Assembly (NCBI GenBank): GCA_017303755.1
Contig: JAFLBS010000001.1
Coordinates: forward strand, 1,168,330 to 1,232,329
Origin: Flavobacteriales bacterium
Lineage (GTDB): Bacteria > Bacteroidota > Bacteroidia > Flavobacteriales > Flavobacteriaceae
Reading direction: 5' to 3'
Length of the DNA: 64,000 bases
The notes under the pieces are model-generated. The model saw nothing but the letters and a program-made list of their open reading frames with translations, made no database searches and was not told the origin of the DNA. Shown one piece after another: positions 497 to 16,676 of the stretch. The translations under genes were made by a program, and so were the position numbers. Each line of letters opens with the position of its first letter. The stretch's first letter is position 1.

Positions 497-895
497 CTAT
501 TCTAAAATTAGCGTTTTATTATTCTCTTTTAATATAGCAAATAAACTATCTTCACTGATTAATCGATTCTTTTTTAAATCTTCTATTATACAGACATTAT
601 GATGATTAGGATAACAGATATATAAAATACTATCATGAATACTAGGATAAAAATCTTCAGCATCTCCATGAATATCATGTGTTCCTGTCAAGAATCTCAT
701 GCCAATTATGGTTGAATCATTTTTATTTAAAAGTTCATAAAATAATGGATTAGTCATTTCAAATTCATTTTTTTGATAAAACCTTACTTTAAGTATACCC
801 ATTTCGTAAATTTTTTTTTCTCCAAGAAATACATATTTATCATTAAAACAAGATGTTAAAACAATTAGTGATAATAAAAAAAGTAATTTTTTCAT
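497..895 (-). CDS. Small lipoprotein, putative immunity protein of orphan RHS tip 1
   Basis: This 132-residue protein starts with a lipoprotein signal peptide (hydrophobic run, then LTSC with the lipobox Cys near residue 16). The mature protein should be anchored in the inner or outer membrane facing the periplasm. I do not recognise the family. It lies two bases downstream of the orphan RHS tip gene on the same strand, the usual place for an immunity gene in RHS toxin loci. It is very AT-rich, as acquired immunity genes often are. The immunity role is inferred from position only. Confidence 0.6.
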   Translation of the reverse strand: MKKLLFLLSLIVLTSCFNDKYVFLGEKKIYEMGILKVRFYQKNEFEMTNPLFYELLNKNDSTIIGMRFLTGTHDIHGDAEDFYPSIHDSILYICYPNHHNVCIIEDLKKNRLISEDSLFAILKENNKTLILE

Positions 896-897
896 GA

Positions 898-1812
898 TTA
901 TTGTCTTCTTATAATGTCTTCATCTACTAAAAACAAATTTTTTCCTTTTTCAGCTGGTTTTATGCTTTTTAACTCTTTTGGAATACTAAAATTATTAAGC
1001 GTAAAATTTGTTTTAAAAAACAAGGGAGTGAAGCTAAGATTTTTAAACTTTTTATCAGTAAAAGTGCCCGGATAACTCCTATAAATTATCAATGAAGTGA
1101 TTGCATCTAATGGCTGTATTAAGTTTTTTATTTTTGTAGTATTCATACCTGATTGAACTATTCTATAAAAATTCAACATATTGGATGGTAAGTCTGCTGG
1201 TTCAAAAGATGATGAAGATGTAGGATGTAAAGATTGTAGTTTTTCAAATTGAAAACTTACATCTTGGAAAATAGTTAATGCAACAGACTTTTTCTCCTCT
1301 AATGATAATCCAGCAGATATGGCATACTGTCTTTCGACACCAATCGACATTCCTCCCTTAAGTATATCTTGTTTGTAAGTAACACTGTAGCAACCCATAT
1401 GCAGTTTTTCTTTAGAAGGCTCGTTCATAATTTGTCTCCATAAGTTTTGAACGCCTATGTGAGGATCTTTTCTGGTTGTTTCTGTAAATGCATGGGTTTT
1501 ATCAACCCATCCATAGTTTTTTGCAAAAAAAATTCTTCCTTCAAGAATTGCTTTTTCATAATCATCTTTAGGCTTAATCTTTGATACATCTATAGTAGAA
1601 TTATAGGCTAATTGTGCCTCTTCAGCATTTACGTATGGGCCATATATACTTCCCGATTCTCCGTTAATCTTATTAATTTTAAATTCTTCTAAACCCTCAA
1701 GTTCTATTGAATCAATTGGTCTGTTTCCACTAAATTGATAAGGAGTATACCATGGATATTTACTCTCAAGCGGATCCACCGCAAAAAACCTACCCACTCT
1801 AGGGTCGTGCAT
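898..1812 (-). CDS. Orphan RHS core fragment with unique C-terminal tip (cassette 1)
   Basis: The 304-residue ORF opens with the RHS-associated core motif DPRVGRFFAVDPLE and then carries a tip of roughly 265 residues unrelated to the other tips here. The core reading frame continues upstream of the ATG to about 1938, and further open to a TAA near 1990, but contains no ATG, GTG or TTG start. Translation could begin only at this internal methionine. There is no signal peptide, no YD-repeat shell and no upstream RHS gene. I do not recognise the tip. It has conserved-looking patches such as YGWVDKTHA and GCYSVTYKQD (His and Cys available) but no assignable fold. Most likely this is a silent spare toxin tip that could be recombined onto the main RHS gene at 6132-16676. 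A short expressed protein cannot be excluded. Confidence 0.7.
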   Translation of the reverse strand: MHDPRVGRFFAVDPLESKYPWYTPYQFSGNRPIDSIELEGLEEFKINKINGESGSIYGPYVNAEEAQLAYNSTIDVSKIKPKDDYEKAILEGRIFFAKNYGWVDKTHAFTETTRKDPHIGVQNLWRQIMNEPSKEKLHMGCYSVTYKQDILKGGMSIGVERQYAISAGLSLEEKKSVALTIFQDVSFQFEKLQSLHPTSSSSFEPADLPSNMLNFYRIVQSGMNTTKIKNLIQPLDAITSLIIYRSYPGTFTDKKFKNLSFTPLFFKTNFTLNNFSIPKELKSIKPAEKGKNLFLVDEDIIRRQ

Positions 1813-1938
1813 TCTAAAGGTGTAGTTTAATGAATTCCCTTCGCCTTTAATTTCATCATCTTTTTCCTGGCCTTGGAAGCCATAACGGTAGCTACCATCG
1901 GTGGCGTGACGGTTGGGTACTAAACTTCCAAAAGGATA
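1771..1938 (-). repeat. RHS core homology block, copy 1
   Basis: This stretch of about 168 bp is almost identical by eye to 6970-7136 in the main RHS gene and clearly related to 5222-5378 in cassette 2. It encodes the core from YPFGSLVPNRHATDG to the FAVDPLE motif. Similarity to the main gene stops sharply after the bases encoding YPFGS, as expected for a recombination boundary. Confidence 0.85.
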
Positions 1939-2120
1939 TGTACTTTTTTGTATAAGAACGTGAGGTAAATATAGGAAAAAACCATATTAAAAATGCGTTT
2001 TTTGGAGTTAAATTTTTGTCATTTTAATAAGGAAAAAATGATTGTTTTTTCGAAAAACTGTAACTTAATTTAATAACAAATATAATATGAATATTACTTT
2101 TTGATGGAAATATATGTGAT
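1939..2120 (-). repeat. Orphan-cassette leader repeat, copy 1
   Basis: The first 42 bases (1939-1980) are identical to 5379-5420 and the rest is a diverged match up to about 5560. The main RHS gene has nothing like it. On the minus strand it contains a TATATTTG match to the Bacteroidota -7 box (2077-2084), aligned with TATTTTTG in copy 2 (5518-5525), but I see no clear -33 TTG. It may be a weak promoter or leader for the tip cassette. The remaining bases to 2293 are AT-rich and hold no gene I can support. Confidence 0.75.
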
Positions 2121-2293
2121 GCTTTTAAAGGATAATTTGATTTGGAGAGTTTTTTTTACCCTATTTTAATATCTATAAAAAGGATTTGAATGGAAGTGAA
2201 TATTATGAATTTAGTATTTATTTACTATTTTTAAAAATGATATTACTATTAATCTAAAATGCATTATTTTTACAATATACTAAAAATTAGCCT

Positions 2294-3619
2294 ATGAAAA
2301 ATTATGTATTAGCCCTTTTTACAGTGATTCCATCTCTATTATTTTCTCAAACCATAACTACTATTGCTGGTACAGGTCTTTCTACTTACAATGGAGATGG
2401 GTTGTCTGCTACTGCCACCAATTTAGGGAATGTTGGAATTATGACTTTCAACAATAATGGAGAGTTACTATTCCCGGACAGTTCAAAAAATTTAATACGA
2501 AAAGTTCACACTAATGGAGTTATTACTACAATCGCAGGGACTCAAAGCTCGGGATATAACGGCGAAAATATATTGGCAATTAATGCCGATTTATACACTC
2601 CAAACGCTGTTGTGGTAGACGGCTTTGGAAATATCTTTTTTAGCGAATTAGGAAATTGTCGTGTCAGAAAAATTGACACTAATGGAATCATCACGACCAT
2701 AGCTGGTAATGGGGAATGTGTTTCATCAGGTGATTTTGGCTTGGCGGTTCAGGCTAGAATACGTTATCCCCAATCTATTTCTATAGATTCAGGAGGCAAC
2801 ATCTATATCTGTGAATCTGTAACTCATAAAGTACGCAAAATTGACACATCTGGGATTATTACTACAATTGCAGGTACTGGCATTGCTGGTTATAATGGAG
2901 ATGGAATATTAGCTACTAATGCTCAAATTAGTCAACCTGGTGGAGTGGTTGTTGATCCACAAGGAAATATTTTTTTTTCAGAACATTTTGGACAACGGAT
3001 TCGTAAAATAGATACAAATGGTATTATTTCAACTGTAGCTGGTACAGGAATTGCCGGTTTTAATGGTAATAACATTCAAGCAAATACCGCTCAAATCAAT
3101 AGACCAACAGGAATAAGAATAGACGCTCAGGGAAATCTTTATTTTGCTGATTCCTATAACAATAGAATTAGAAAGATAAATACCAATGGAGTAATTACTA
3201 CCATAGCCGGTATGGGATTACAAGGTTATACAGGAGATGGTGGTTCTGCTTTATCTGCTATGCTCAACACACCATCCGATTTGTTGTTTGCCCTTGATGG
3301 TAGTATGTACATCAGTGATAATTTTAATTATAGAATTCGAAAAGTTACCAATGTTTTGGGCAATGAGGATTTCACAATAAGCGAAGGTGATGTTGCATTA
3401 GCGCCCAATCCTTCAGCAAATGGATATACGACTGTCTACTTTCCTGAACTAGTTGATGAAATAAAAGTATACGATTTATTGGGCCAAATCGTTTTATCTG
3501 AAAATGCCCAAGGAAAAGATCACATTGAGATTTACCTTCCTAACTCAGGGGTTTACTTAGTTACTTTTTATTCTGCAGGAGCAACCATTACCAAAAAACT
3601 TGTGGTAGGGCAGAATTAA
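2294..3619 (+). CDS. Secreted NHL-repeat protein with T9SS sorting domain
   Basis: This 441-residue protein starts with a Sec signal peptide (about residues 1-19, ending LLFSQ). Six repeats follow, of the type TTIAGTG-x-x-x-YNGDG with intervening NxxFSE and RIRKI segments, typical of NHL beta-propeller blades. Residues from about 355 to the end are a T9SS type A sorting domain (LAPNPSANG, LLGQIVLSE, TKKLVVGQN). Known from the family: NHL propellers bind proteins or ligands, and T9SS exports cargo to the surface. The specific ligand is unknown. The gene stands alone on the plus strand between two minus-strand toxin-tip cassettes, and its 3' end is nearly identical to 1-260. It appears to be part of the duplicated unit; whether it has anything to do with the toxins is open. 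Confidence 0.9.
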   Translation: MKNYVLALFTVIPSLLFSQTITTIAGTGLSTYNGDGLSATATNLGNVGIMTFNNNGELLFPDSSKNLIRKVHTNGVITTIAGTQSSGYNGENILAINADLYTPNAVVVDGFGNIFFSELGNCRVRKIDTNGIITTIAGNGECVSSGDFGLAVQARIRYPQSISIDSGGNIYICESVTHKVRKIDTSGIITTIAGTGIAGYNGDGILATNAQISQPGGVVVDPQGNIFFSEHFGQRIRKIDTNGIISTVAGTGIAGFNGNNIQANTAQINRPTGIRIDAQGNLYFADSYNNRIRKINTNGVITTIAGMGLQGYTGDGGSALSAMLNTPSDLLFALDGSMYISDNFNYRIRKVTNVLGNEDFTISEGDVALAPNPSANGYTTVYFPELVDEIKVYDLLGQIVLSENAQGKDHIEIYLPNSGVYLVTFYSAGATITKKLVVGQN

Positions 3620-3641
3620 GGTTGTTAATTCAATTTAAAAT

Positions 3642-3667
3642 AAAAGCAACTCGTGTGAGTTGCTTTT
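3642..3667 (+). terminator. Rho-independent terminator after NHL gene copy 2
   Basis: An eleven-base perfect stem (3642-3652 with 3657-3667) surrounds the loop gtgt and is followed by a T run. It is the same stem sequence as at 286-307 and probably also ends the minus-strand immunity gene at 3716. Confidence 0.85.
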
Positions 3668-3715
3668 TTTATGTATTACATTCACGCTAAGGGATTCTTG
3701 TGAGGGCTGTGAAAC

Positions 3716-4396
3716 TTATTCATCAAATGACCAAAAAATTAGAATTTGTTCAGAGTTTTTATTCTCGATTAAATAATTCTCTATTTCAGTTATTCTTTCT
3801 ATTTCATCATTAAATTTTAATGAATTAATTTGATAGTAATATTTTGAAATTAAATAACTATCTGAGATTTGTGGGTTATATAAATAATTATTTCTTGTAG
3901 GCTCAAAAAAATAGTCATACTTAAAAAGTAGTTTATTTATTTCCCATTTAATTGGTTTATATGTTATGAACCAATCGTTGAAAAAGATATATGAGTTGTA
4001 TTTTACATAATATTCTTTCCATGTATCATAGTTAATATAATTTATAGAATTTCCTTTAAACTCAATACCATCATTAATTATTGAATTTAAAACTTCGTTA
4101 GTAAATTCATATTCATTTTTAATATTACCTTTAAAATTAGTTAGGAAAAACTTGTTTTTAGTTAATGATTCATAATTTTTTCTTAATTCATTAAGTAAAA
4201 ATTTAGCATTTGCAATAACAAATTCTTTATCATTATTTTTTTCTATGTAATTAATTTTTTGTAACGCTTTATTATACCCATTTTTATTATACAAAGCAAT
4301 TTCAACATTATCTTCCATATTCATTTTCTTATCGTTACAGGAAAAATTAAATAAAATTAGAATAAAAAATAAGACTTTATTTACCACTCTTTTCAT
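3716..4396 (-). CDS. Lipoprotein, putative immunity protein of orphan RHS tip 2
   Basis: This 226-residue protein begins with a signal peptide ending FNFSC (lipobox Cys at about residue 20), so it should be a periplasm-facing lipoprotein. The body is rich in Asn, Lys, Tyr and Ile, consistent with very AT-rich DNA, and I recognise no domain. It overlaps the end of the orphan tip gene upstream by 20 bases, so the two would be translationally coupled. Position and coupling suggest an immunity role. The lipoprotein location is odd if the partner tip really is a nuclease. Confidence 0.6.
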   Translation of the reverse strand: MKRVVNKVLFFILILFNFSCNDKKMNMEDNVEIALYNKNGYNKALQKINYIEKNNDKEFVIANAKFLLNELRKNYESLTKNKFFLTNFKGNIKNEYEFTNEVLNSIINDGIEFKGNSINYINYDTWKEYYVKYNSYIFFNDWFITYKPIKWEINKLLFKYDYFFEPTRNNYLYNPQISDSYLISKYYYQINSLKFNDEIERITEIENYLIENKNSEQILIFWSFDE

Positions 4397-5309
4397 ATTG
4401 TTCAGTCATATTGTCTATAATAGCTTCTGTATTCTCATTTTGATTATCCCTTAGGATTAATCCTCCACCTAAACTCTGTAATATTCTTAATTTCTCATCT
4501 ATAGCGGATTTCGTATTACTGTTTTTTGTAATCTCTAGAAAAGTATCCTTATCAGTGACTAAAACAGTAATTTCATTATTAGACTTTCGTTCTTTAGCAG
4601 TTTCAATTGCTTGATCAAGACCTTTTAATATCTTGTCTTTAGCACTTCTACCTGATCCAACGGTTTTAATTTCTGCATAAATCTTTGTTTCACTAGTTAA
4701 ACTAATCTTTTTTAAATATTCTTTTCCATTAATATCGTTTAATTCTATTCCCAAATCATCTTGATAAATTCTTATATAACCACCATCTGGACCAATAAAT
4801 TTCACTCCTTTCTTAGCTTTATCAATCATTGATTTAATTGGATTTACAGTTATTACAGCATCATATTTTTTACCTGGTGAGCTTGGTTTAGCAACTGCTC
4901 TAAAAAAAGGCAACAATCCTATTGTGAAACTTGAAGCCCCTATCGTCTCTCCGATAGCTCCTTTTAAATTACCATGATAAGAAATTAATTGTTTTTCTTG
5001 TTGTGGTGTTCTATTTTTAATTTTTCTTAACCTTACATAATTTTCAAAATATAAAAAAACACTTTTGTCATACAAAGGTGCTAAAGGAGCATATTTTATA
5101 ACTGCTGCATATATTCGCGGGTTGGGATAATCACCATTAATATCTGAATTATATAATGGATTATTATCAGCATAACTATATGTTGAAGAATCTGGAAATT
5201 CTGTCTCATGAGAATCAGGTGAAAACCATCTACCAACTCTTGGATCCAACATCCTAGCCCCGAAATCATAGCTATTCCCTTCGCCTTTAACTTCATCATC
5301 TTTTTCCAT
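4377..5309 (-). CDS. Orphan RHS core fragment with nuclease-like tip (cassette 2)
   Basis: This 310-residue ORF starts within the RHS core (MEKDDEVKGEGNSYDFG, then LDPRVGRWFSPD at about residues 21-32) and continues into a unique tip. The core frame extends upstream to about 5378 without another clear start. The tip has Glu121 in a GAIGE context, Asp150 and an E-x-K pair (Glu213, Lys215, in YAEIKTVGSG), followed by a helix-like KDKILKGLDQAIETAKE stretch. This arrangement resembles PD-(D/E)xK nuclease-fold toxins. That is a pattern-level inference and other folds are possible. The ORF has no signal peptide or RHS shell, so it is probably a stored or displaced tip. Confidence 0.7.
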   Translation of the reverse strand: MEKDDEVKGEGNSYDFGARMLDPRVGRWFSPDSHETEFPDSSTYSYADNNPLYNSDINGDYPNPRIYAAVIKYAPLAPLYDKSVFLYFENYVRLRKIKNRTPQQEKQLISYHGNLKGAIGETIGASSFTIGLLPFFRAVAKPSSPGKKYDAVITVNPIKSMIDKAKKGVKFIGPDGGYIRIYQDDLGIELNDINGKEYLKKISLTSETKIYAEIKTVGSGRSAKDKILKGLDQAIETAKERKSNNEITVLVTDKDTFLEITKNSNTKSAIDEKLRILQSLGGGLILRDNQNENTEAIIDNMTEQYEKSGK

Positions 5310-5378
5310 CCCATTAAAGCCATAACGGTAGCTACCATCAGTGGCGTGACGGTTAGGTACTAAACTTCCAAAAGGATA
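5222..5378 (-). repeat. RHS core homology block, copy 2
   Basis: This block is homologous to 1771-1938 and 6970-7136 but more diverged at its 3' end (RWFSPD instead of RFFAVDPLE). The segment encoding YPFGSLVPNRHATDGSYRYGF is nearly identical in all three copies. Confidence 0.8.
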
Positions 5379-5560
5379 TGTACTTTTTTGTATAAGAACG
5401 TGAGGTAAATATAGGAAAAAATCACATCAAATAATGTAGTTTTTGGAGTTAAATTTTGTTCATTATTAGTAGGTGAAAAATGATTGTTTTTTGAAAAGTT
5501 AAGACTAAATTGAATAACAAAAATAGAATTATGAGTATTGCTTTTTGATGGAATATATAA
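5379..5560 (-). repeat. Orphan-cassette leader repeat, copy 2
   Basis: The first 42 bases match 1939-1980 exactly, then diverged similarity continues to about 5560. On the minus strand it has TATTTTTG (5518-5525) aligned with TATATTTG in copy 1, a possible -7 box without a convincing -33 element. Confidence 0.75.
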
Positions 5561-5621
5561 TAAGAATTTGAAGCGTTTTTTAAAGATTATTGATGCTTTG
5601 AGTTTTTGCTTTTTATGAATG

Positions 5622-5650
5622 AAAAAGCAACTCGGTTAAAGTTGCTTTTT
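5622..5650. terminator. Bidirectional terminator and remnant of a third NHL-gene end
   Basis: An eleven-base stem (5622-5632 with 5640-5650) is the same stem sequence as at 286-307. The following 45 or so bases resemble 308-352, including the phrase GTGTGCTATTGG. Only this tail of the duplicated unit survives here; no NHL coding sequence precedes it. It probably ends the RHS operon on the minus strand. The rest of 5651-5780 holds no gene I can support. Confidence 0.7.
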
Positions 5651-5780
5651 TATTGCTTTGTGGGTATGGATTGTAAATGTGTGCTATTGGAATTATTAAA
5701 ATCAAGACTGTTTTATCATTCCGCAAAGTCTCCTGACCTTTCGGAGCTGAAGATTAGTTGCTTTTTTGTTTATTGTATGA

Positions 5781-6125
5781 TTACAAATCATCGCTATCAG
5801 GTTGTTTTCTTATAAATTCATGAATCCATAAATTTAATAATTCTAACGAATGAAAATCGTCAGAACTATAAAGTCTAATAATTCTTTCACAGTCATATTT
5901 TTTTATACATTTTTCAGCATAATTACTTTTTACAAAAAAATAAAAATTATCAAAAAAGTCTCTTACAATTGAATCTTCTTTTGCTATAATATAACCTTTA
6001 AAGAATATGTAAAAATCTTCCACCTTTTGAATTGAAAAAAGTGAAGGCCTCTCTAATACATATAAAATTAAATTTATATTTTCTATTTTAAAATCATTAT
6101 TTTCCATAATCTGAAAAAAACTCAT
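5781..6125 (-). CDS. Putative cytoplasmic immunity protein of the main RHS toxin
   Basis: This 114-residue protein begins six bases after the RHS stop codon. An alternative start at Met7 would shorten it slightly. It has no signal peptide or membrane segment, so it should stay in the cytoplasm. It is acidic and aromatic-rich, with no recognised domain. Being directly downstream of a polymorphic toxin tip is the classic immunity position. A cytoplasmic immunity protein implies that the tip acts in the cytoplasm. The function is inferred from context only. Confidence 0.6.
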   Translation of the reverse strand: MSFFQIMENNDFKIENINLILYVLERPSLFSIQKVEDFYIFFKGYIIAKEDSIVRDFFDNFYFFVKSNYAEKCIKKYDCERIIRLYSSDDFHSLELLNLWIHEFIRKQPDSDDL

Positions 6126-6131
6126 TAATAT

Positions 6132-9100
6132 TTATTTAATTTCTTTTGCAGTCTTCATTATTTCTGCCCCGCTAATAATTTTTGATGTTTTAGGATCAAA
6201 AGCTTCAAGTCCTTTAACAAAATCAGACTTCAATATTCCATTTGGGTTCATATTATCAAAAATATATTCAACCCCTTTTATAGTTTTTTGTACAAATTGA
6301 TGTATTCCTGTTGTGGATAAAGGCACATCTCTCCCATTAACAAGCACACTCATACCCGCACCATTTGGAGCTTTTATTTCATATTTAGTACCGCCAAATA
6401 TTTTTTTAAAATCCTTTGCAAATTCCTTACATTTACCATATTGTAATTTACCAACAATTTTAGTTTCAGTAATTAAACTTCTAACTTCAGTTATTGTTCT
6501 ATTGAGTAAAGAAAACTTGTTTGAAGCGCCCGCATACCTTAGTCCATTAACTAACTTACCTCCTCCGCCAATCCCAGGAGCTGGAAGAACACGATTACCT
6601 AAAACCTCAGTCTTATGATATTGATCCGAAGTTAGTTCAATGTCATCATTATCAGAACTTGTTGTAAAATGAATAAGTTTGCCATCATTTTTAGACAATC
6701 TAAAAATGGAATATCTTTTTTCATGATTCTCTAAAATTCTTATAACTAAGTATGTATCATTCTCTAATGAAATTATATTTTCATCAGGGATATTATATTT
6801 AGTGATATAAGCATTTAGTCTATTAAGATGATATTGACCTGTTATAGCATTCAATGCCTTAGTGAAAAAACTTGGGTCTTTTTCTTCTAATCCTTCAAGC
6901 TCTACAAATCTAATCACTTTATTACCTCCAAAACTGTATGGCGAATACCATGGATATGATTTTTCCAACGGATCCACTGCAAAAAACCTACCCACTCTAG
7001 GGTCATGCATTCTAAAGGTGTAGTTTAATGAATTCCCTTCACCTTTAATTTCGTCGTCTTTTTCCTGGCCTTGGAAGCCATAACGGTAGCTACCATCGGT
7101 GGCGTGACGGTTGGGTACTAAACTTCCAAAAGGATAGTAATCATTATAGGCTAAAACATCAGGTTTAAATAACGAAACATAATCTACATTTGATGGATCT
7201 ACGGCATAGGCATAAAAATCATCAACACTAAAACGCACCGCAGTCGAGTTCTCACAATTGGCTGTTATTGTAACATAATAGTCGTCAGAAACAGTTGGAG
7301 TAAATGAACCAGATACAACATCGTCATTGATCAGAGTACTCCATAAAACTGTTTTATCAAGTTTATCCCTAACCTCTAAAGACAAAGGAACTGATGAAGG
7401 AAAATTATCTAGTTTTTTTACTTTTACGTTAAACATGACGGTTTGATCTTCCTCTAAACGTAAGGGTAATTGTATCCCGGTGTTAGCAGCATCGGGTTTG
7501 GTCGTGGTAATCAGATCTCCGTATTTGGTATAGTCTAAAACAGCTTCGTTTAAACTAGTCCAGTTTGTTTCTCTGTCAAATGTATCTATAAAAACACTTC
7601 GAGTATTTGTGTTTATTAATTTTCGATCACTAATTACATTTAAGACATTTCCTAAATGATTGGACAATTCGTAACTTTTATCACCTACTAAACGATAGTA
7701 ATATTCGGGGTATCTATAGTCGCCATAATTTTGTATTCCTAATCTACTGCTTCCATAAATGTGGTGTTCAATTAGCTTATTGTTGATAACCTCTTCGGCA
7801 GTATACAAAGAAATGTATTGTTGGTATACTCCTAACACATTTCCTTGTGCATCTCTAGAGTAATAGGTCGTGGTTGTACCTTCTCTTCGTCCAACATCTT
7901 GTTTGGCTATTCGATTACCTAAACCATCATAAAAGAAATTAATTGTTTGACGGCCATTACCTTTTTGTACACTTTTTACTTTTCCATCAACTCTCCAGAT
8001 AATCTTGTCAATATTTTCGGCTTTATCTTGAATCAGTTGGCCAATTTCATCATAAACATAATTATCGTTGTCCGTTTGATGGTCAATGTCTTCGGTGAAA
8101 TTGTCACTTATTGTGACATCATCATTAATAGATTTTAGTTTGTTGGTATACGGGATGTAATTGTACTCAAAGCGATCCATTTTAACTATTGACTCTTGTG
8201 TATTACCTGCTAAAATCTTTGGGGCATCTCTGTGTAAGGTTAAGAGATTTCCATTTTTATCATAAGTATAATCACTTTCGTAACTTGGTGTTGATGTGAC
8301 TAATCCGCCAACTTCAGTCGCTTTGTAAGAGTCCATGCCAAATATTCTATTCAACTGGTCATAACTATACAAGTTTACTTGAGTAGGCAGTATTTCTTCA
8401 TTCAATCCTCTAACCGAGGTAATCATCCGTTTAATGTTTCCGTTAAATAGATTGGTGCCAGAAAAATTGGTGTTAGTAGGTGAGACAGAATAAGGGTAAA
8501 CTGTTCCGGGTTGTCTAGCTTCATAATCGCCATCAAAGTAGGATAACGAAAAACCAAAAGCATCTCTTGAAATGTAGTTACCATCTCTTCCCATGTCTTT
8601 ATTGTTGGCAGCTAAATTCTCTGAATTAACTGTTTTCAACCAACCTTGTAAAGTATAAGCATAGTCAGTACCTTGCACTTTTTTGTCACCAGTAATGACT
8701 TTGGCTAACGGACCGTGTTCATAATACAAATAAGTGGCATCATTTTCCCAAATAACACCATCTCTAGATGTCTCTACTGATGTTATTCGGTTGTCTGCAT
8801 CGTAAGTGTATCGATGTATGAACTGATCCTCTTTTGACCCTTTTTGAAAATGGACTTTATTTACATTTCCGCTAATTAAGTCGTACTCATAATGAACTCT
8901 TTTTATTATTCCATCAGGGTTGTTTTCATCGTTTACTATATTTGGTCCTATTCTTTGGGCCATTTCATCTACATTTCCATGGATGTCATAATTATAGAAT
9001 ATAGCAGTATCATTTTCGGCTAATTCTTTCCCTTCAAAATGTGAATCAAAAGTTAAAATAGCAGTAACTCTATTTCGAGTATTCCTAATTTGTTGTGGTG

Positions 9101-12100
9101 TTAGAAAATCATCTGCATTGAACGGGTCATAAGAATCGTACAATGTTTTGGTAACTTCTGTTTGATTTGAGGATATCTCATATGGAAAATGAGTAGAATC
9201 TACACCAATTTCAGTTCCCAAAGTTACATTTATGAGTCTCCCATTATCATTAATTTCTGCAACCATATTAGGTAGTAGTTCAAATTCACCAGCTTCAATT
9301 ATTCTTCCCAAAGGATCATAACGAGTATAACTAAAATCAGACGAAGTATTATTTGCAATTTTAATTTCGCATATTCTGGAACCTGGGTCATAGATTCCAA
9401 AATCGGCATACATCGGGTCTGAATTTTGGGCTACGGGCTCGTTTACTTGATCTAATAATGAACCATTTTTATAAAATTTGATAACACCATTATTTCGGGT
9501 TATCTTCATTTTATCACCGTTTATAACGGTATGAATCGGGCCAAAGTCTTGAATACCTTGTCGTAATCTGAATTGACCATTTACGTCATAGGAAAAACCA
9601 TAGTCAACCGAATTATTATCACCAGCAGCATACGACATACCAAATATGACATGCTGAGTACTCGATAAAGGATGATTTTCATCAATTCGGATGGTATGCT
9701 CAACACTTGAGTTGGTTGAAAGGCTTGACAAACTAGTTCCACCTGAATACTTCCATGAATACGCGCTGCTCGCTTTATAAACGTAAGTTTCTTCTGTAGA
9801 CAATGCTGTTTGTAGCGACAAACTTGGATTCAATTCAACCACAGAATTTTTTTGCTTATCGTTTTGTGATGCTACGATTCTTCCTAATTTGTCATAGGCA
9901 AATCGGGTTTCTCCGCCATCTGGGGTTAATTGCCAAACCAATTGATTCAATGAGTTGTATCGGTATTGCGTTTTAAAATTATGCTCAGGAATCAGAGCGT
10001 TGTTTTCAGAATTTGGAGTTTCAATTCTAAGCTGATCAATCAAGTTATTTGTTGATGACGGTAAGGTCGCCACTCCTTTTGGGGCAACAGTTTGAATCAA
10101 ATTACCCGCTTGGTCATAATAATATAAAGTATATTGATATTCTCTATCAGCATAAGATAAATTAAAATTTTCAATCGCAGTGGCTAATGCTTCTTCTAGA
10201 TAACGTCGTTTGAACTCAGCTTTTTTAGATTCTAAATAAGCTGCATAGTTTGCCGAATTATATACGTCTGCTACTGCTGCATTAAACTGTTCGCAAGGTG
10301 AGTCCTCTGGTAAACCCACATTAAATGATACAGAAGGAATCATTGGGGTGGGTGGACAAATTTCAGGATGAGCAATCAAATAAGTAATAATAAACGCTTT
10401 CCAGTTTTTAATCTCTGTGTCAGTTGTGGTAGTTAAATAATCTTTATAAGCTAAAATCGCAGAAAGATAACCGTCACCACCCGTTGTATAACCATCAAAG
10501 CCAAAGTTCAATCCTGTAGCACCAAATTCTGCAATTGTTATATATTGTGCGTGATTTGTTGAGGAAATTTGTAGTTGTTCAATGTAATCTATATACCCAT
10601 CTACTAAATACTGTAGATTGTTCCCGCAGAAATAGTCTTTTCTATTTGCATAATATTGAGCTTCATAATTGGTCGAGCCAAATGTAGTTGACATAAAGGT
10701 CATATAAGTTTCATAAGCCTCATCACAGGCTACAGGAACGGGTGGACGTGGAATACAAGGACAGGTGTTTTGAATGGAATTTGAACTGTTAGTAGCGTAT
10801 ACATAGTTGGTTGGTATTCTTGCAAAATCATTACCGTAAGCCTCAGTTCGGAAGTAACAAATTTTTCCGTTTCCAGAATTTGTACAAGTTATATAATTAT
10901 AACCTGCATTTTTAATTAAAGTCGAAATATTAAAACTAAAATCATGAGTAGCTTCATTTGTTGTATTAGTTACTGTGTCTGTCCACAAGTATCTTATTCG
11001 CATAATATCCCAATTTAAAGGAGATGGATTTGGAAATAATTTTACTTCTAGAACCTCGGTAATGTTTTGTGATGTACCAGAGCCGCCTGACAAATAAAAT
11101 TCGACTGCTGGATCAAAATTATTATTAACACTGTTTTTCCATCTAAACTTATATGGAAATTTATTATTCTTATAATATGTAAAAGTATTTTGAGTTGATG
11201 TACTATAATTAGGGCTATTAGAACCATAACACTGATCTGTTTTAGCATCAAGAAAATGTTTAATTCTATTTAAATCTGGATTATTTAACATTAAATAATT
11301 ATCTCTAAACGCTCCATAAAATGATAAATTATTTCCAATTATTTCTACATTTTGTGGATCATTATTAATTTGAACAATTTCATTTAATAAATTTTTAAAA
11401 TGAAGTTCAAAATTTTCTTTGTCTTGACCTATAAAACAATCGCAAACATCACCTAAACCGTCATTATCTGTATCATTTTGGTTTTCACTATTAGTATATG
11501 GGCAATTATCACAAGCGTTTCCTCTTGAATCATTATCAGAATTCAATTGATTTAAGTTATTAATAGTTGGGCAATTATCACAAGCATCAGCAATTCCATC
11601 TCCGTCTGGACTGTTTTCTTGGCCAGGATTAGGAACATTTGGGCAATTGTCATTTACATTAGGAATTCCATCACCATCTGTATCTGGTAATGCAATATTA
11701 TTTGTAGTACAATTAGGATTAATTCTACTATCACATCTATCACAACTTGTTGATCCAAAAACACCATTATCACCAATTCCATCTGCATCAAAATCATATT
11801 CACCACACGGTGAACAACAAGTAAAATATAATTTAGTTTTTATTGGATTGTTTGTAGTTACTCTATGGATAAAACCATTAAATAAGTTTCCACCCCAATT
11901 GATAGTAATGGTATGAACATTTTCAATATCATCTGTATTCCCAATAGTAACTGAATTTATAGGTGAGGTTGGTGTTGCATAAGGTGTACTTTGTGTGTCT
12001 CTGTAAATTATAATTCCTGTATTGACAGTGCTTGAACCATTTGTTACCTTAAGTTCAAATCTCTGAGGATTACCAGCTGTAAAAACTGAAGCTTGCCAAC

Positions 12101-15100
12101 GAGCAGTTGTTGCGCCAAAATATGTACTTAAGCTCGGTGGTAAAGTAAACGGAGGTGTTTGTGAATTAGAGAATATTTGATTTGTAGCAATTAATCCTTG
12201 CATTAAGGATTTTAAACCTTGCGCAAAAATTTCCTTTTTATCGCAGTCTGGGTCATCTAATGGTTCTAATACAATAGGATTACCCTGTGATACATCATTT
12301 GAACCACCCGTATTACAACTCAATCGGATGGTAGTTTTTCCGTCTAAAACCCTTTCAAAATAATCAGTACCGTTAATAGTAATTTTGGCCAATACTTTGA
12401 AATTGTATATGCCACCATTGAGGTTATCGTAAGTAGTAAAAACAACATTCGACATCTTAACAATTTTCCAATTGCCAGAAGTAAAGTAGTTGTTCCAATT
12501 CAAATTACTGTTGTTGGACGTATTTGGGATAGTGAGTTCTATGGTTTTTAAAGTATAACCTTGTTGGGTATACTGTAAGGTTACTGTTTTTCCGCCTGAT
12601 GAAACCGTACCATTACCACTGAAAGGATTGGTATATGCCACAGGAGAGCCATTCATTTCGGTGAGTAAAGCAGGAGTAATAAAGCTTATGTTAGGATGAT
12701 TGGCAGCAAGCGGTAGTCCTCTATACATTGGAGCGAAAGCTTCTCTTTTGGCCGATTGGTCCAACAGTATTTCCAAATCACGCACCATTGGGCAAATACC
12801 AGTTTGAGCATAAAAGCTACTGTTTGATTGTGCAGTAGAAACACCGCCACCATTGGTAGCCATATTTTCTTGCATCATAAAGCGTTTAACTTTAGTGGCC
12901 AATTGAACGCTATTGGCAGAGCAAATGTTTGTAGCAGGAGCCAATACCAATTCTGTGTCAACAAATGCTTTTTGGGAAGCGTATCGTTCCGCAATGCCGC
13001 TAGTAATTAGACCAATGTTTGCTTCGTTAGCATTTCCTATACAGTCATTATAAGCGCCATTACGAGCGGCATATAAATTGATGAAAACATCTTTTATTCT
13101 TTGTTTATGACTTACATAACTGGCTAAATATGTTTTCCAAAAGCGATCTTGTTCGTCGGGTTCGAATTCACTTTGAACTTTTTGAATTATAGCACCAAAA
13201 GTGGTCAGTGTATTAGAATCGCAATTGCTACCATATCCTGAGCATCGAACCAACTCATAAGCAAATTTTGCTATGCTTACGTCAGTTCCGCCGATTCCTG
13301 GTGCGTAGCCTTTATTGGTATTACCACTAAAAAAAGTCGTTGTATTATTTAGTGCCAAAGCTTGCTCCATCATCGATATTTTTACATTTCTGTAGTTTTC
13401 TCTTATTGTATTGGAAGCAAGTGTTTGAACATAGTTTCCGCTAGTTAGTGTTGTTGTGGCACCATCTAAAGGATGTGGTTCTTGAAAAAAGGGATCGTTT
13501 TGTAGCAAAACAGTGGCAGATTGGAAAAACCCAGCAGCTGAAGCTTGATTAAAAGTTGCTACCTGGCTTAAAAAAGAATCAAAACCGTCTGAGTTAACAG
13601 TATAATCTTCAGTAGCACTGTCTGATTGAATCAAATTAAAAGAAATCGTTTTGATGTATTCATCATCACAATATTGCAGTTGATAATCGAGATAATGAAA
13701 CTCAGGATGGTATTTGATTAACGATAAAGCCCAACTTTGCTGCGTCTGAAAAAAGGAGATAAAATCGTCAACATTTTTAAGATACTGAGGTTCAATTTTG
13801 CCATTTACAACAACTGCGCCTTGAGCTATTTCGGGGTTATAAGTTCCATCACCTTGATCAAGAACGGTTATGTACGATATTTGACCTGTTTCATCGTAGT
13901 AATGATTAAGATCGCTGATGTTGAGACCATTCTTGTCATAGTAGTTAGGATGTCTCCAATTATTAACGGTTGAGCCAGGAATATTAGAATTGTTAGTTAA
14001 ACCTGCAACAGTAGCCGTAATTGTATTAGTAGTCGAATCGTTAAAAACAGATAATGGTAGTTCATCAATACTTGCTTGAACGGTTGCTTCTGGGTCATGT
14101 TCGTTGGCATATTGACCGCCAGGAGAAACATCAGATGTTATTTCCATAAACAAACCTGTACAGGCAATTGAACCTGTAGGTGGTGTTTCACTCCCTGAAA
14201 CAATTCCAGAACCTGTGCAAGGCTGCATACATCCTTCTAATATGAGTGCAAATTCGGTATCGTAACGTTCAGTAAGTATACTTAGTAAATCATCGTACTG
14301 TGAAGATCCTGGAGTTAGCAAGCTCAATTCACTATTAGCATCTAATAATTCTTGACGGTAAGCGGCAGCACCTAGATGTGTTACTCCGTTTGATGTGTAG
14401 CTTAGAGTATTATAATAGCTGGCACATTCTTCACAACTTTGAAAACAGCCAATGGTACTTACATTTGGTGGTTGAAAAGCAAAAATACAACCATTGTCTT
14501 TTGCATTTTCAATAAAGTCATTAGCAAAAACCTCTAATGCAACGTCATCAACTACTAGTTTTTTAGAAATTCCATAGTTCCCTATCGCTAGGGATAACGG
14601 AATATTTTCATTAATAGTGCCAATTGTGACAGAGTTTGTAATCAATTCGTTTTGTTGACTTGAAAAATGATGACTTATTGTTTCTGGTAATTGACTTAGA
14701 CCACAATCATTAATAATATCAATATCCAATTTATAAACAAATGGATATGAAAGCTCATTTGAACTAGTCCCTGTTGATTCACAACCAAAAGTGAACATTG
14801 AGGTATTGGTCAATGAGTAATTAAAGTCGTATATTGTTCCTTCAAATGTAAATACTTTTTGAGCATCATATCTCAATCCATCAAAAAGATTTCCAAAATT
14901 ACCCGTTTTAAACTTTGTATTATTATCTGATTCTGTATCAAAATCATTAGAATTCAATTTATTGAGTAAATCTTCAAAAAAGTTTTCTCTTTCTGCATGC
15001 GGATCGTTCAAGTCAACAGTAGAGTCCGTATTTTTTCCTGCCAAAGCGGTAGCTATAGTTCTGCCTTGTGGGTCGAGGTAACTAACACTCAACTGGCCAT

Positions 15101-16676
15101 TGGGGTCAATCACAGTGTTTTTTTTGTAGTGTAGAGCATTCCCAACATAGTATCCAAAAAGTCGGTTAAGTTCTTCTTGTGCAGGAACTGAATAGAAGTA
15201 CTTCATTTCGTGACCCGATCCAATTTGATGAGTCAAACCTACACCACCTTTGCTTTTTACTCTTCCAGTGTTATCATTTGAATAGATGATTTGTGAGAAT
15301 GGGAATAAGTTTGCTTTGGGTACAAAATCGTGTAGATTATCTTGACTAGCAGAAGCTTCAGAGTAATAGTGACTTGCTCCCGATACGTTTGACATTCCAA
15401 GAGTAGCAAAAGTGCAGTTTTCATCAACTAAAGGAACAAAATCCTGATACGAATAGACATCACCCTGTTCATTTTTGTTTAAATTAGGGTAAAACCGTAT
15501 GGCATTGCTGTTTATTGGTGATGGTAGTACTTCAATTGCTGGTCTTCCCTCGTTATCATAAATTACTTCTCCAACAATTGCTTTTTCATTGGTGTTTATT
15601 TTGGTTACTGTTTGTCTGTTTCGTAGTGATCCATCAAAATAAGATACAACTTCTTTTTTCTTGCCATTTTCAGCAAAAGAAGATTGAAATTGCCAGTTTA
15701 GTTTGTTTTGATGACCCGCTAATTGAATATGTGGCCAATTTGATACTGTTGTTGTAGTTGGAGGAGTAGGAGGAGTATTCATTGCACTCCAATTTCCATA
15801 GAGAGAGTTAGAGATTACTTCTTCATCGGAATAAGTTGGGTCCGTAAATTTACCAATTGTTCTTATTCTGTAAAGTAAAAAACCACGATCGTAAATGTTC
15901 GATATCGAATAATTCAGTTCTTTAGTTCTAATCCTGCTATTGTTATTTGTGAAATCATAAAAGTCAAAATTAATTTCATTGCTAGACAATACAGTGTTCA
16001 AATTATCAGTGCTGTAATTATCAACCCAAGTCCACTCTAATTCATATTCTTCAGCTCCTTGAATTGAATTCCATGAAAAATCAATAGTGTTGTTGGTAGT
16101 ATTTTGAACAACATTTAATTGAGGTGTATTTGAAGTCGTCAGACTGTAATAACGCTCCGATTCAAATGAAGCTTTGAGCTCTAGGTTTCCCGGAACAGTT
16201 GTAACTGGTTGCCCCGACTCGTTATTAATTATTGAAATTTGTGTTATCGAGATTCTTGCTCCTCTTGTTGAACTTCCTACAACTTGATGTTTGTGTAAGT
16301 CTATGAAGTTTCCGAATCCTCCATATCGGTTATTTTCAACGGTCAACTGAATGGGATAAGCAGGTCCATATCCACCTGTATCTAATCTTGGTTCAATATT
16401 TAGAGTAAGTGTAGCTGTATACCAAAAAAAAGGACCTGTATAATCATCAATGAGAAGTTCAACAAAGGTTGTATTGTTTATTGTTCTATAATTTGACAGA
16501 CTTAATTCGGTATCTTCTACAATCAAAGCGCCTGCATAGTTTGAACCCGTTAGTACAATACTAGAAGAGGAAAAAATAGTTTCTCGATAAAAATCTTTAG
16601 AAAATAAATTACTAAATGATAAAAGTAAAACCAATAATAATGTGGTTCTTACGGATGTTAAATTTATTTTTTTCAT
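6132..16676 (-). CDS. Giant secreted RHS polymorphic toxin with papain-like C-terminal tip
   Basis: This 3,514-residue protein starts with a Sec signal peptide (residues 1-27, LLLVLLLSFSNLFS). Residues of about 310-390 (NWPHIQLAGHQ, SYFDGSLRNRQTV) resemble the N-terminal DUF6443-type domain of Bacteroidota RHS proteins. Cys-rich and Cys-poor modules follow, then four or so thrombospondin type 3-like calcium loops at about 1640-1745 (DTDGDGIPN, NCPNVPNPGQ). YD/RHS repeats run from about 2170 to 3000. The RHS-associated core with YPFGSLVPNRHATDG and DPRVGRFFAVDPLE lies at about 3180-3262. The last 250 residues form the tip, with Cys3416 (YGKCKEF), His3459 (GIHQF) and Asp3474/Asn3475 (FDNMNP) in the order of a papain-like toxin fold. 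Known from the family: the RHS shell encloses the tip until delivery. It is the penultimate gene of an eight-gene operon, followed by a putative immunity gene. The export route beyond Sec is not visible. Confidence 0.92.
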   Translation of the reverse strand: MKKINLTSVRTTLLLVLLLSFSNLFSKDFYRETIFSSSSIVLTGSNYAGALIVEDTELSLSNYRTINNTTFVELLIDDYTGPFFWYTATLTLNIEPRLDTGGYGPAYPIQLTVENNRYGGFGNFIDLHKHQVVGSSTRGARISITQISIINNESGQPVTTVPGNLELKASFESERYYSLTTSNTPQLNVVQNTTNNTIDFSWNSIQGAEEYELEWTWVDNYSTDNLNTVLSSNEINFDFYDFTNNNSRIRTKELNYSISNIYDRGFLLYRIRTIGKFTDPTYSDEEVISNSLYGNWSAMNTPPTPPTTTTVSNWPHIQLAGHQNKLNWQFQSSFAENGKKKEVVSYFDGSLRNRQTVTKINTNEKAIVGEVIYDNEGRPAIEVLPSPINSNAIRFYPNLNKNEQGDVYSYQDFVPLVDENCTFATLGMSNVSGASHYYSEASASQDNLHDFVPKANLFPFSQIIYSNDNTGRVKSKGGVGLTHQIGSGHEMKYFYSVPAQEELNRLFGYYVGNALHYKKNTVIDPNGQLSVSYLDPQGRTIATALAGKNTDSTVDLNDPHAERENFFEDLLNKLNSNDFDTESDNNTKFKTGNFGNLFDGLRYDAQKVFTFEGTIYDFNYSLTNTSMFTFGCESTGTSSNELSYPFVYKLDIDIINDCGLSQLPETISHHFSSQQNELITNSVTIGTINENIPLSLAIGNYGISKKLVVDDVALEVFANDFIENAKDNGCIFAFQPPNVSTIGCFQSCEECASYYNTLSYTSNGVTHLGAAAYRQELLDANSELSLLTPGSSQYDDLLSILTERYDTEFALILEGCMQPCTGSGIVSGSETPPTGSIACTGLFMEITSDVSPGGQYANEHDPEATVQASIDELPLSVFNDSTTNTITATVAGLTNNSNIPGSTVNNWRHPNYYDKNGLNISDLNHYYDETGQISYITVLDQGDGTYNPEIAQGAVVVNGKIEPQYLKNVDDFISFFQTQQSWALSLIKYHPEFHYLDYQLQYCDDEYIKTISFNLIQSDSATEDYTVNSDGFDSFLSQVATFNQASAAGFFQSATVLLQNDPFFQEPHPLDGATTTLTSGNYVQTLASNTIRENYRNVKISMMEQALALNNTTTFFSGNTNKGYAPGIGGTDVSIAKFAYELVRCSGYGSNCDSNTLTTFGAIIQKVQSEFEPDEQDRFWKTYLASYVSHKQRIKDVFINLYAARNGAYNDCIGNANEANIGLITSGIAERYASQKAFVDTELVLAPATNICSANSVQLATKVKRFMMQENMATNGGGVSTAQSNSSFYAQTGICPMVRDLEILLDQSAKREAFAPMYRGLPLAANHPNISFITPALLTEMNGSPVAYTNPFSGNGTVSSGGKTVTLQYTQQGYTLKTIELTIPNTSNNSNLNWNNYFTSGNWKIVKMSNVVFTTYDNLNGGIYNFKVLAKITINGTDYFERVLDGKTTIRLSCNTGGSNDVSQGNPIVLEPLDDPDCDKKEIFAQGLKSLMQGLIATNQIFSNSQTPPFTLPPSLSTYFGATTARWQASVFTAGNPQRFELKVTNGSSTVNTGIIIYRDTQSTPYATPTSPINSVTIGNTDDIENVHTITINWGGNLFNGFIHRVTTNNPIKTKLYFTCCSPCGEYDFDADGIGDNGVFGSTSCDRCDSRINPNCTTNNIALPDTDGDGIPNVNDNCPNVPNPGQENSPDGDGIADACDNCPTINNLNQLNSDNDSRGNACDNCPYTNSENQNDTDNDGLGDVCDCFIGQDKENFELHFKNLLNEIVQINNDPQNVEIIGNNLSFYGAFRDNYLMLNNPDLNRIKHFLDAKTDQCYGSNSPNYSTSTQNTFTYYKNNKFPYKFRWKNSVNNNFDPAVEFYLSGGSGTSQNITEVLEVKLFPNPSPLNWDIMRIRYLWTDTVTNTTNEATHDFSFNISTLIKNAGYNYITCTNSGNGKICYFRTEAYGNDFARIPTNYVYATNSSNSIQNTCPCIPRPPVPVACDEAYETYMTFMSTTFGSTNYEAQYYANRKDYFCGNNLQYLVDGYIDYIEQLQISSTNHAQYITIAEFGATGLNFGFDGYTTGGDGYLSAILAYKDYLTTTTDTEIKNWKAFIITYLIAHPEICPPTPMIPSVSFNVGLPEDSPCEQFNAAVADVYNSANYAAYLESKKAEFKRRYLEEALATAIENFNLSYADREYQYTLYYYDQAGNLIQTVAPKGVATLPSSTNNLIDQLRIETPNSENNALIPEHNFKTQYRYNSLNQLVWQLTPDGGETRFAYDKLGRIVASQNDKQKNSVVELNPSLSLQTALSTEETYVYKASSAYSWKYSGGTSLSSLSTNSSVEHTIRIDENHPLSSTQHVIFGMSYAAGDNNSVDYGFSYDVNGQFRLRQGIQDFGPIHTVINGDKMKITRNNGVIKFYKNGSLLDQVNEPVAQNSDPMYADFGIYDPGSRICEIKIANNTSSDFSYTRYDPLGRIIEAGEFELLPNMVAEINDNGRLINVTLGTEIGVDSTHFPYEISSNQTEVTKTLYDSYDPFNADDFLTPQQIRNTRNRVTAILTFDSHFEGKELAENDTAIFYNYDIHGNVDEMAQRIGPNIVNDENNPDGIIKRVHYEYDLISGNVNKVHFQKGSKEDQFIHRYTYDADNRITSVETSRDGVIWENDATYLYYEHGPLAKVITGDKKVQGTDYAYTLQGWLKTVNSENLAANNKDMGRDGNYISRDAFGFSLSYFDGDYEARQPGTVYPYSVSPTNTNFSGTNLFNGNIKRMITSVRGLNEEILPTQVNLYSYDQLNRIFGMDSYKATEVGGLVTSTPSYESDYTYDKNGNLLTLHRDAPKILAGNTQESIVKMDRFEYNYIPYTNKLKSINDDVTISDNFTEDIDHQTDNDNYVYDEIGQLIQDKAENIDKIIWRVDGKVKSVQKGNGRQTINFFYDGLGNRIAKQDVGRREGTTTTYYSRDAQGNVLGVYQQYISLYTAEEVINNKLIEHHIYGSSRLGIQNYGDYRYPEYYYRLVGDKSYELSNHLGNVLNVISDRKLINTNTRSVFIDTFDRETNWTSLNEAVLDYTKYGDLITTTKPDAANTGIQLPLRLEEDQTVMFNVKVKKLDNFPSSVPLSLEVRDKLDKTVLWSTLINDDVVSGSFTPTVSDDYYVTITANCENSTAVRFSVDDFYAYAVDPSNVDYVSLFKPDVLAYNDYYPFGSLVPNRHATDGSYRYGFQGQEKDDEIKGEGNSLNYTFRMHDPRVGRFFAVDPLEKSYPWYSPYSFGGNKVIRFVELEGLEEKDPSFFTKALNAITGQYHLNRLNAYITKYNIPDENIISLENDTYLVIRILENHEKRYSIFRLSKNDGKLIHFTTSSDNDDIELTSDQYHKTEVLGNRVLPAPGIGGGGKLVNGLRYAGASNKFSLLNRTITEVRSLITETKIVGKLQYGKCKEFAKDFKKIFGGTKYEIKAPNGAGMSVLVNGRDVPLSTTGIHQFVQKTIKGVEYIFDNMNPNGILKSDFVKGLEAFDPKTSKIISGAEIMKTAKEIK
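6970..7136 (-). repeat. RHS core homology block, main gene copy
   Basis: This 167 bp lies inside the RHS core coding region and is shared with 1771-1938 (near identity) and 5222-5378. The shared block ends at the YPFGS codons on one side and near the FAVDPLE codons on the other. Homologous recombination here would swap the tip and the downstream immunity gene. Confidence 0.85.

Follow-up and report, generated by a model that had tools for sequence, protein, structure and literature searches.

What use can a bacterium make of protein tips that are stored next to a gene but have no start of their own? This question is raised by a 64,000-nucleotide stretch of a Flavobacteriales genome (hereafter the window; C1:1168330-1232329 of a 4.07-Mb genome in 15 contigs, GenBank assembly GCA_017303755.1), in which one full-length RHS gene is accompanied by orphan cassettes, each composed of the start of the RHS core, a tip and a small downstream gene. 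The answer that we regard as very probable is a shufflon-like switch of Rhs toxin tips: a tyrosine recombinase encoded to the left of the window, here called REC, would pair inverted sites, flip the DNA and exchange the tip together with its putative immunity gene.

The proposed switch would work as follows. One full-length RHS gene, the copy with a start, would provide shell and tip, and spare 3' cassettes (core start, tip and immunity gene) would lie silent nearby. At least one spare cassette would stand on the opposite strand, so that the full-length gene and an orphan converge, with a dedicated tyrosine recombinase, REC, beside or between the cassettes. A short site encoding YPFGSLVPNRH would be present in inverted copies, and recombination between two of them would turn over the intervening DNA, join a spare tip and its immunity gene in frame to the shell, and store the former tip. 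In the window genome, the inverted partner of the full-length gene's own cassette (D) would be cassette A (C1:1160825, plus strand), and cassettes B and C, oriented like D, could be joined to the shell once they had been inverted against A. REC is the presumed catalyst of inversion, and the locus of the window genome is probably active.

Within the window, a direct-repeat search returned a single 255-nt repeat family with three copies on the minus strand (1684-1938, 5124-5378 and 6882-7136; 67-86% identity to the reference copy), and cores B and D agree at 86% over 255 nt. A genome-wide core search gave eight matches, of which four are close: D (full length, minus), B (minus), A (plus) and C (minus). 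All four exceed the cut-off of the RHS-associated core model TIGR03696, and every core copy leads into its own tip and its own small downstream gene, with no BLAST match among tips A-D at E<=1e-8. A first-pass annotation of this DNA had described three core blocks, each with a different tip and a different following gene, and had assigned shell and signal peptide to one copy only; both descriptions are borne out, since the sole complete copy in the window combines the shell with an N-terminal signal-like stretch, recognised by eye. For the cores at 1938 and 5378, inspection by eye found no start codon between the in-frame upstream stop and YPFGS. The elements on which the argument depends are these.

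6132-16676, minus strand: full-length RHS gene D, 3514 amino acids (shell, core and tip D), the predicted expression copy.
7075-7143, minus strand: site D, from -7 to +61 relative to the Y codon (GATTACTATCC...), matching the exchange interval mapped in the relative G133.
5781-6125, minus strand: putative immunity gene D, 114 amino acids, so named from its position after tip D; no Pfam match at E<=0.1.
4377-5378, minus strand: orphan cassette C, core 5133-5378 and tip C, start-less before the core.
5317-5378, minus strand: site C, without GATTAC upstream of TATCC.
3716-4396, minus strand: putative immunity gene C, 226 amino acids, with a lipobox-like signal sequence at its start (by eye).
898-1938, minus strand: orphan cassette B, core 1693-1938 and tip B, start-less before the core.
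1877-1938, minus strand: site B, identical to site D at 60/60 nt, without GATTAC.
497-895, minus strand: putative immunity gene B, 132 amino acids, with a lipobox-like signal sequence at its start (by eye).

The two lipobox-like starts agree with the earlier proposal of two lipoprotein-like orphan immunity genes. The remaining two elements lie outside the window. Cassette A, about 7.5 kb to its left, consists of a core, a 258-amino-acid tip, a 79-amino-acid gene (its zinc-ribbon-like matches stay below cut-off) and an edge that looks like a terminator and is related to the edges of the other cassettes. Adjoining it is REC, a tyrosine recombinase of 347 amino acids (C1:1162186-1163223; PF00589, E=5e-12), for which a PDB sequence search gave no relative at E<=0.001. 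Residues R177, H289xxR292, H315 and Y325, which we take to be the catalytic residues of tyrosine recombinases, are invariant in seven of seven aligned RECs.

Inversion, tip swap and exchange interval can all be observed directly in the relative G133. About 42 kb are repeated at both ends of its 3.27-Mb contig, by the look of it an untrimmed circle, and the two copies are collinear at 99.5-99.7% identity, apart from a segment of 4561 nt that is inverted and 99.87% identical. A 227-amino-acid tip belongs to the full-length gene in one copy and to an orphan in the other, and a 252-amino-acid tip shows the reverse arrangement, each tip being 100% identical between the copies; both full-length frames are open (3003 and 3963 amino acids). 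With positions counted from the Y codon of YPFGS, its first base being 0 (in the G133 orphan this codon encodes P), markers at 0, +1 and upstream stay with the flank and markers from +62 onwards move with the tip, and the 60 bases between (+2..+61) are identical in all four joints. This split of markers, together with the open frames, places the exchange inside +2..+61 and indicates that tips swap in frame. The prediction that exchange occurs at the YPFGS codons is thereby supported, the interval mapping to 60 bp of these codons. The exchange seen in G133 is an inversion between inverted copies, not one between direct repeats; direct exchange of B or C with D may occur.

Signs of both orientations within a sequenced culture are also given by assembly joints in three species. 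In Flavobacterium cupreum, the contig that carries the shell (3503-amino-acid frame) ends in 127 nt identical at 127/127 to a cassette joined elsewhere to an orphan flank, and the longest exact run common to the two cassettes is 48 nt. In F. supellecticarium, one and the same cassette is found at the ends of a shell flank (3321-amino-acid frame) and an orphan flank, with one mismatch in 127. In F. piscinae, two different flanks have the same terminal 127 nt and both overlap one cassette end, and the two ends of the cassette contig share a 32-nt exact run; one flank is an orphan and the other carries approximately the last 170 residues of a shell. We rejected this second flank as a full-length shell because only the shell end is present, in a 210-amino-acid frame. 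The 127-nt overlap presumably reflects the word length of the assembler. Cassette-specific markers start at +26 in F. piscinae and at +41 in F. cupreum; if F. piscinae is counted, its markers and G133 would together narrow the exchange to +2..+25. The F. piscinae shell end lies beside the site on contig C7 (L229:1-631), with no further match to the window shell in the next 13 kb, and this flank may be read as a decayed or partial RHS gene still attached to its cassette.

Other contig ends were treated more cautiously. Contigs end at or inside the core in six loci (L077, L104, L107, L115, L119 and L146), which agrees with mixed orientations, and no second joint was found there to prove them. 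The second contig of G638 (C2, 11.3 kb), made of locus sequence joined at the site, was not counted, as it looks like a collapsed loop: comparison of L211 (G638:C2) with L212-L214 shows two cassettes joined head to head over a collapsed repeat, which may be how the assembler resolved mixed orientations. A contig end in F. humi (G554) was also left uncounted, since it is 91% like two orphan flanks of another contig and so represents a repeated flank.

Could the two-state evidence then be an assembly artefact or a cassette duplication, with the convergent layout merely ancestral? Every two-state case is a deposited assembly without reads, the G638 loop contig indicates that assemblies do go wrong at the site, and the F. 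piscinae joints are also expected from two copies of one cassette. Against this, one and the same position is broken or flipped in four separate assemblies, the flip in G133 is flanked by markers on both sides, and the homogenised codons described below require recurrent exchange whatever the assembler did. We find this explanation scarcely credible.

If tips are exchanged through the site, the site itself should carry the trace of it. Pairwise comparison of the four cores of the window genome gives 57-60 identical positions over the 60 nt that start at the Y of YPFGS (17-20 of 20 third positions) and 38-44 over the following 60 nt (57 for B and D). Site codons were compared more widely in 122 cores from 65 loci, with a random 35% sample of the between-loci pairs and without L076, L088 and L086 (genomes present twice), L044 and cores lacking an intact start. 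Where the amino acid is the same, the fraction of identical codons is 0.82 for the 57 opposite-strand pairs from one locus, 0.74 for the 23 same-strand pairs from one locus and 0.44 for the 2432 pairs drawn from different loci; for codons 22-70 the respective values are 0.60, 0.58 and 0.49. The difference between 0.82 and 0.44 means that the site is homogenised inside each locus beyond what protein conservation accounts for, and the first refuting condition of the first-pass annotation, core blocks no closer to one another than to RHS genes of other species, does not hold. Just upstream of the site, GATTAC (-6 to -1) is kept at 60-86% per base in 73 orphans, mostly within very short frames. 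In the window genome it is present in A and D and missing in B and C, which suggests A and D as the likeliest active pair. A further, ungapped comparison of exact runs between core pairs contained many low-identity rows that look like a shifted core start (confirmed for G133 only); these rows were not used (L043, L044, L071, L081, L111, L134, L135 and some of L078, L096, L113, L130 and L131).

How general is the arrangement? The convergent layout and its tie to REC recur widely among the relatives. When the REC alignment was scanned against the contigs of 84,980 species genomes, 92 relatives were found. The 80 loci retained belong to Flavobacterium, Hyunsoonleella, Aquimarina, Aequorivita, Mesonia and further genera, the more distant relatives being from Chitinophagaceae. 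We classified 83 loci (the kept loci and three more, same-genome duplicates removed): REC lies between RHS cores in 46 and just outside a convergent core pair in 10. In the 46 loci, the left cores are all on the plus strand (57/57) and the right cores all on the minus strand (65/65), so that 122 of 122 cores are convergent. Inversion between any left and any right core would preserve this rule, as a shufflon would be expected to leave it.

REC is also tied to the core at the level of genomes. Among 398 Flavobacterium genomes (thresholds E<=1e-15 for the core and E<=1e-60 for REC), the core was found in 48 and REC in 27, and all 27 REC genomes are within the 48 (hypergeometric p=3.8e-29, uncorrected for genome relatedness); the REC of G092 is distant (E=4.3e-79). 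Strands were compared using part of the core matches, those listed, with the downstream orphan within 20 kb: an opposite-strand downstream orphan accompanies 18 of 19 full-length genes near REC vs 2 of 8 not near it (Fisher p=6e-4, among the matches listed). Full-length genes without a nearby REC in G619 and G576 have same-strand orphans only, again among the matches listed. As a control, we examined 12 REC-bearing genomes, where 13 of 119 Phage_integrase matches fall between RHS cores, namely the 12 RECs and a fragment beside REC in G589, and one further match is within 20 kb of a core.

Two variants were noted in passing. In the ten loci with REC outside the convergent pair (L139, L140, L142, L144, L145, L075, L098, L109, L110 and L122), REC precedes the orphan core by no more than about 0.7 kb and is oriented divergently to it; among these loci are metagenome-assembled genomes of Chitinophagaceae with REC at 45-50% identity. 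In G645, REC (C1:732658-733692) contains 10 in-frame stops, and the 12 core matches of this genome include both strands among the matches listed; it is perhaps a natural case of a dead switch.

These data bear on another explanation, in which tips invert by general homologous recombination between short inverted core copies, with REC as a passenger or in the service of some other element. In its favour, the exact runs of some loci are as long as 177 and 223 nt (L069 and L128), exchange intervals differ between species, and exchange of enterobacterial orphan Rhs modules is attributed to homologous recombination over 522 bp in PMC3967940. Yet where both joints are visible the exact runs are short (32 nt in F. 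piscinae, 48 nt in F. cupreum and 60 nt in G133), REC is restricted to genomes with the core and sits between convergent cores, and full-length genes without a nearby REC have same-strand orphans only in 6 of 8 cases among the matches listed. On balance we consider homologous recombination an unlikely cause of the inversions.

Among the cassette tips, D matches the Tox-PL-2 papain-fold toxin family (PF15643, E=2.2e-7), and no Pfam toxin family was found over cut-off for tips A, B and C. D was also the sole tip assigned to a clear toxin family when A-D were searched with Pfam, NCBIfam and PADLOC, and B and C against PDB sequences as well. The tips would act as toxins against competitors and the small downstream genes, by their position, as immunity genes of the adjacent tips, and the immunity genes of silent cassettes are presumably expressed. 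The silent state of the orphans themselves can be seen in related loci: where an upstream stop is visible, a median of 7 codons separates it from the core (n=71), an in-frame ATG before the core is missing in 61 of the 71 orphans and present in 10, and GTG or TTG occurs in 12.

The first-pass annotation regarded the orphan cassettes as a reservoir for the full-length gene and expected their tips to appear fused to full-length genes in other strains. Among 206 deduplicated tips, 39 clusters contain tips from two or more genomes, and 19 of these group an orphan of one genome with a full-length gene of another (21 of 46 among the 212 tips before deduplication), which supports the reservoir. The expectation of fusion holds for tips of other genomes; no fusion of the window genome's own orphan tips was found among the 212 tips or in the same-genus genomes searched. 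In L132, an orphan tip is related to tip D at 38%. None of the orphan tips A, B and C has a relative in the set of 212. When each was searched for in 160 same-genus genomes, matches at E<=1e-6 were confined to the window genome for A and C, and for B included G055 at 48% (284-amino-acid frame) and G061 at 26% (547-amino-acid frame).

The same annotation had placed the locus under the enterobacterial mechanism, with homologous recombination between tandem direct copies. Taken as the whole story, this is unsupported, the evidence pointing instead to inversion beside a recombinase that lies outside the window. A stricter form of the idea is that the cassettes are ordinary displaced orphans of the enterobacterial style, remnants of tip replacement that are rarely exchanged through tandem direct copies. 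B, C and D are indeed in tandem on one strand, B and D share the 86% identity over 255 nt given above, tips recur as orphan and full-length across species, and genomes without REC, such as G004, G704 and G803, have same-strand orphans only among the matches listed. This reading, however, leaves the inverted fourth cassette, the recombinase and the 122 of 122 convergent cores unexplained, and it is strained by the presence of both orientations in one assembly (G133), so that we hold it to be very unlikely.

Several observations weigh against a REC-driven inversion switch and have to be set beside the evidence for it. For the window genome a single orientation is known, its sites A and D are unlike at 3 of 60 nt and share an exact run of 29 nt (-6 to +22), and its own orphan tips were nowhere found fused to a full-length gene, neither among the 212 tips nor in the 160 same-genus genomes searched for each. 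In F. supellecticarium, the mismatch at about +33 remains on the side of the shell flank, at odds with the F. piscinae interval; the exchange point may vary, or a base error may be involved. F. piscinae has no close core on a full-length frame, and a second identical cassette copy would yield the same joints, so it is the weaker case. In the survey of 83 loci, 17 have cores on one side and one strand only and 10 have no core on the fetched piece, and 21 of the 48 Flavobacterium genomes with the core are without REC. Near REC, the opposite-strand orphan of G576 is 20.2 kb away. Finally, two full-length genes with a convergent orphan have no REC within 20 kb among the matches listed, that is, the second locus of G787 (REC 22 kb away) and G638 (REC 28.7 kb away).

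The cassettes of the window are delimited by further repeats. Upstream of the core, B and C share a stretch that is absent from D (B-D and C-D are alike at just 25 of 53 nt), and the 3' edges of the cassettes are related.

5379-5559, minus strand: upstream stretch of orphan C, common to B and C, absent before the core of the full-length gene.
1939-2114, minus strand: upstream stretch of orphan B, common to B and C; 1834-2114 matches 5274-5559 at 86%.
5622-5690, minus strand: terminator-like 3' edge of cassette D (by eye), with related edges at 283-349, 3639-3671 and after cassette A (matches of 69 nt at 84%, 78 nt at 77% and 35 nt at 89%).

Cassettes B and C alternate with NHL-repeat genes that carry a type IX secretion system sorting tail, at 2294-3619 in the window (plus strand; TEN_NHL E=2.5e-43 and a Por_Secre_tail match) and at L007:12226-13590 (plus strand), and the units holding these two genes are 85% identical over 1445 nt. 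The RHS shell contains, at 11461-11789, repeated Asp-rich DNCP stretches that resemble thrombospondin type 3 calcium repeats (by eye). Upstream of RHS gene D on the same strand, with two small genes between, is the gene of a 2035-amino-acid protein (17984-24091); its relatives occur in 1 of 80 loci, whose fetched flanks seldom extend that far.

To the left of the window, an operon resembling a type II secretion system or pseudopilus flanks the locus (L007:81-12095; GspD, E, F and pilin recognised by eye, with no family search aimed at them). In the window genome, REC and cassette A stand between the GspF gene and the pilin gene, two genes that lie next to each other in G133 and G136. Near REC, at least one of the four genes has a relative in 15 of 45 long loci, too seldom for inclusion in the model. 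A second large RHS-type gene (2311 amino acids, plus strand) stands about 18 kb further left, accompanied by a small lipoprotein-like gene and another tyrosine integrase-like gene (L006:3422-10357 and 11557-12873).

Why would such a switch matter? Changes of polymorphic-toxin tips have so far mostly been deduced from strain comparison. If recombinase-linked inversion is true, tip switching would be reversible and lossless, siblings would differ in weapon and share immunity, and the system would allow switching rate, tip choice and cost to kin to be measured directly. We think it likely that programmed inversion, driven by a dedicated site-specific recombinase, swaps tip and immunity gene on a giant RHS protein in Flavobacteriaceae and Chitinophagaceae, with cells of a clone differing in their contact toxin and all immunity genes kept, and that loci with multiple cassettes, such as this one with its four tips, are true shufflons. 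Convergent RHS cores flanking a tyrosine recombinase provide a signature with which genomes can be searched.

The closest known counterpart is the pilV shufflon of plasmid R64, in which the tyrosine recombinase Rci acts on a gene with a constant N-terminal part and silent inverted 3' ends through short coding sites. The RHS locus likewise has one expressed gene, silent inverted 3' ends, a neighbouring tyrosine recombinase and exchange over a short site, if REC plays by analogy the role of Rci and D is the copy expressed. It differs in that the target is a 3500-amino-acid RHS protein with putative toxin tips and not a pilus adhesin, that each cassette has its own putative immunity gene, that the genomes are those of Bacteroidota, and that the site varies in its codons between species while being homogenised within a locus. 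Orphan rhs-CT/rhsI modules of Salmonella and other enterobacteria, as described in the relevant part of PMC3967940, comprise a full-length gene and truncated core-tip-immunity modules; exchange there involves a 522-bp repeat at 95% identity, and the main immunity gene is deleted unless the locus is first duplicated. Both systems, to judge from that part, place start-less core-tip-immunity modules beside an intact gene and move a tip onto the shell through the conserved core. By contrast with that account, the sites here are inverted, the exchange segment is about 60 bp or less, a recombinase is linked and no gene is lost. Gene-altering inversions, or invertons, replace a gene's variable part by a silent alternative through reversible inversion (PMC11892184 and PMC5903667); the same kind of exchange is seen in G133 with an RHS target, and the main texts of these two papers contain no occurrence of 'rhs' and gave no RHS or polymorphic-toxin target. 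In the open-licence literature we found no prior report of tip inversion in Rhs or polymorphic toxins, and the programmed-inversion predictions of Milman 2023 might include such loci. Like other RHS/YD-repeat proteins of Bacteroidota, all four cassettes score over the curated cut-off of Rhs_assc_core (TIGR03696); what would set this locus apart from them is the proposed inversion of its tips, unreported for such proteins in that literature.

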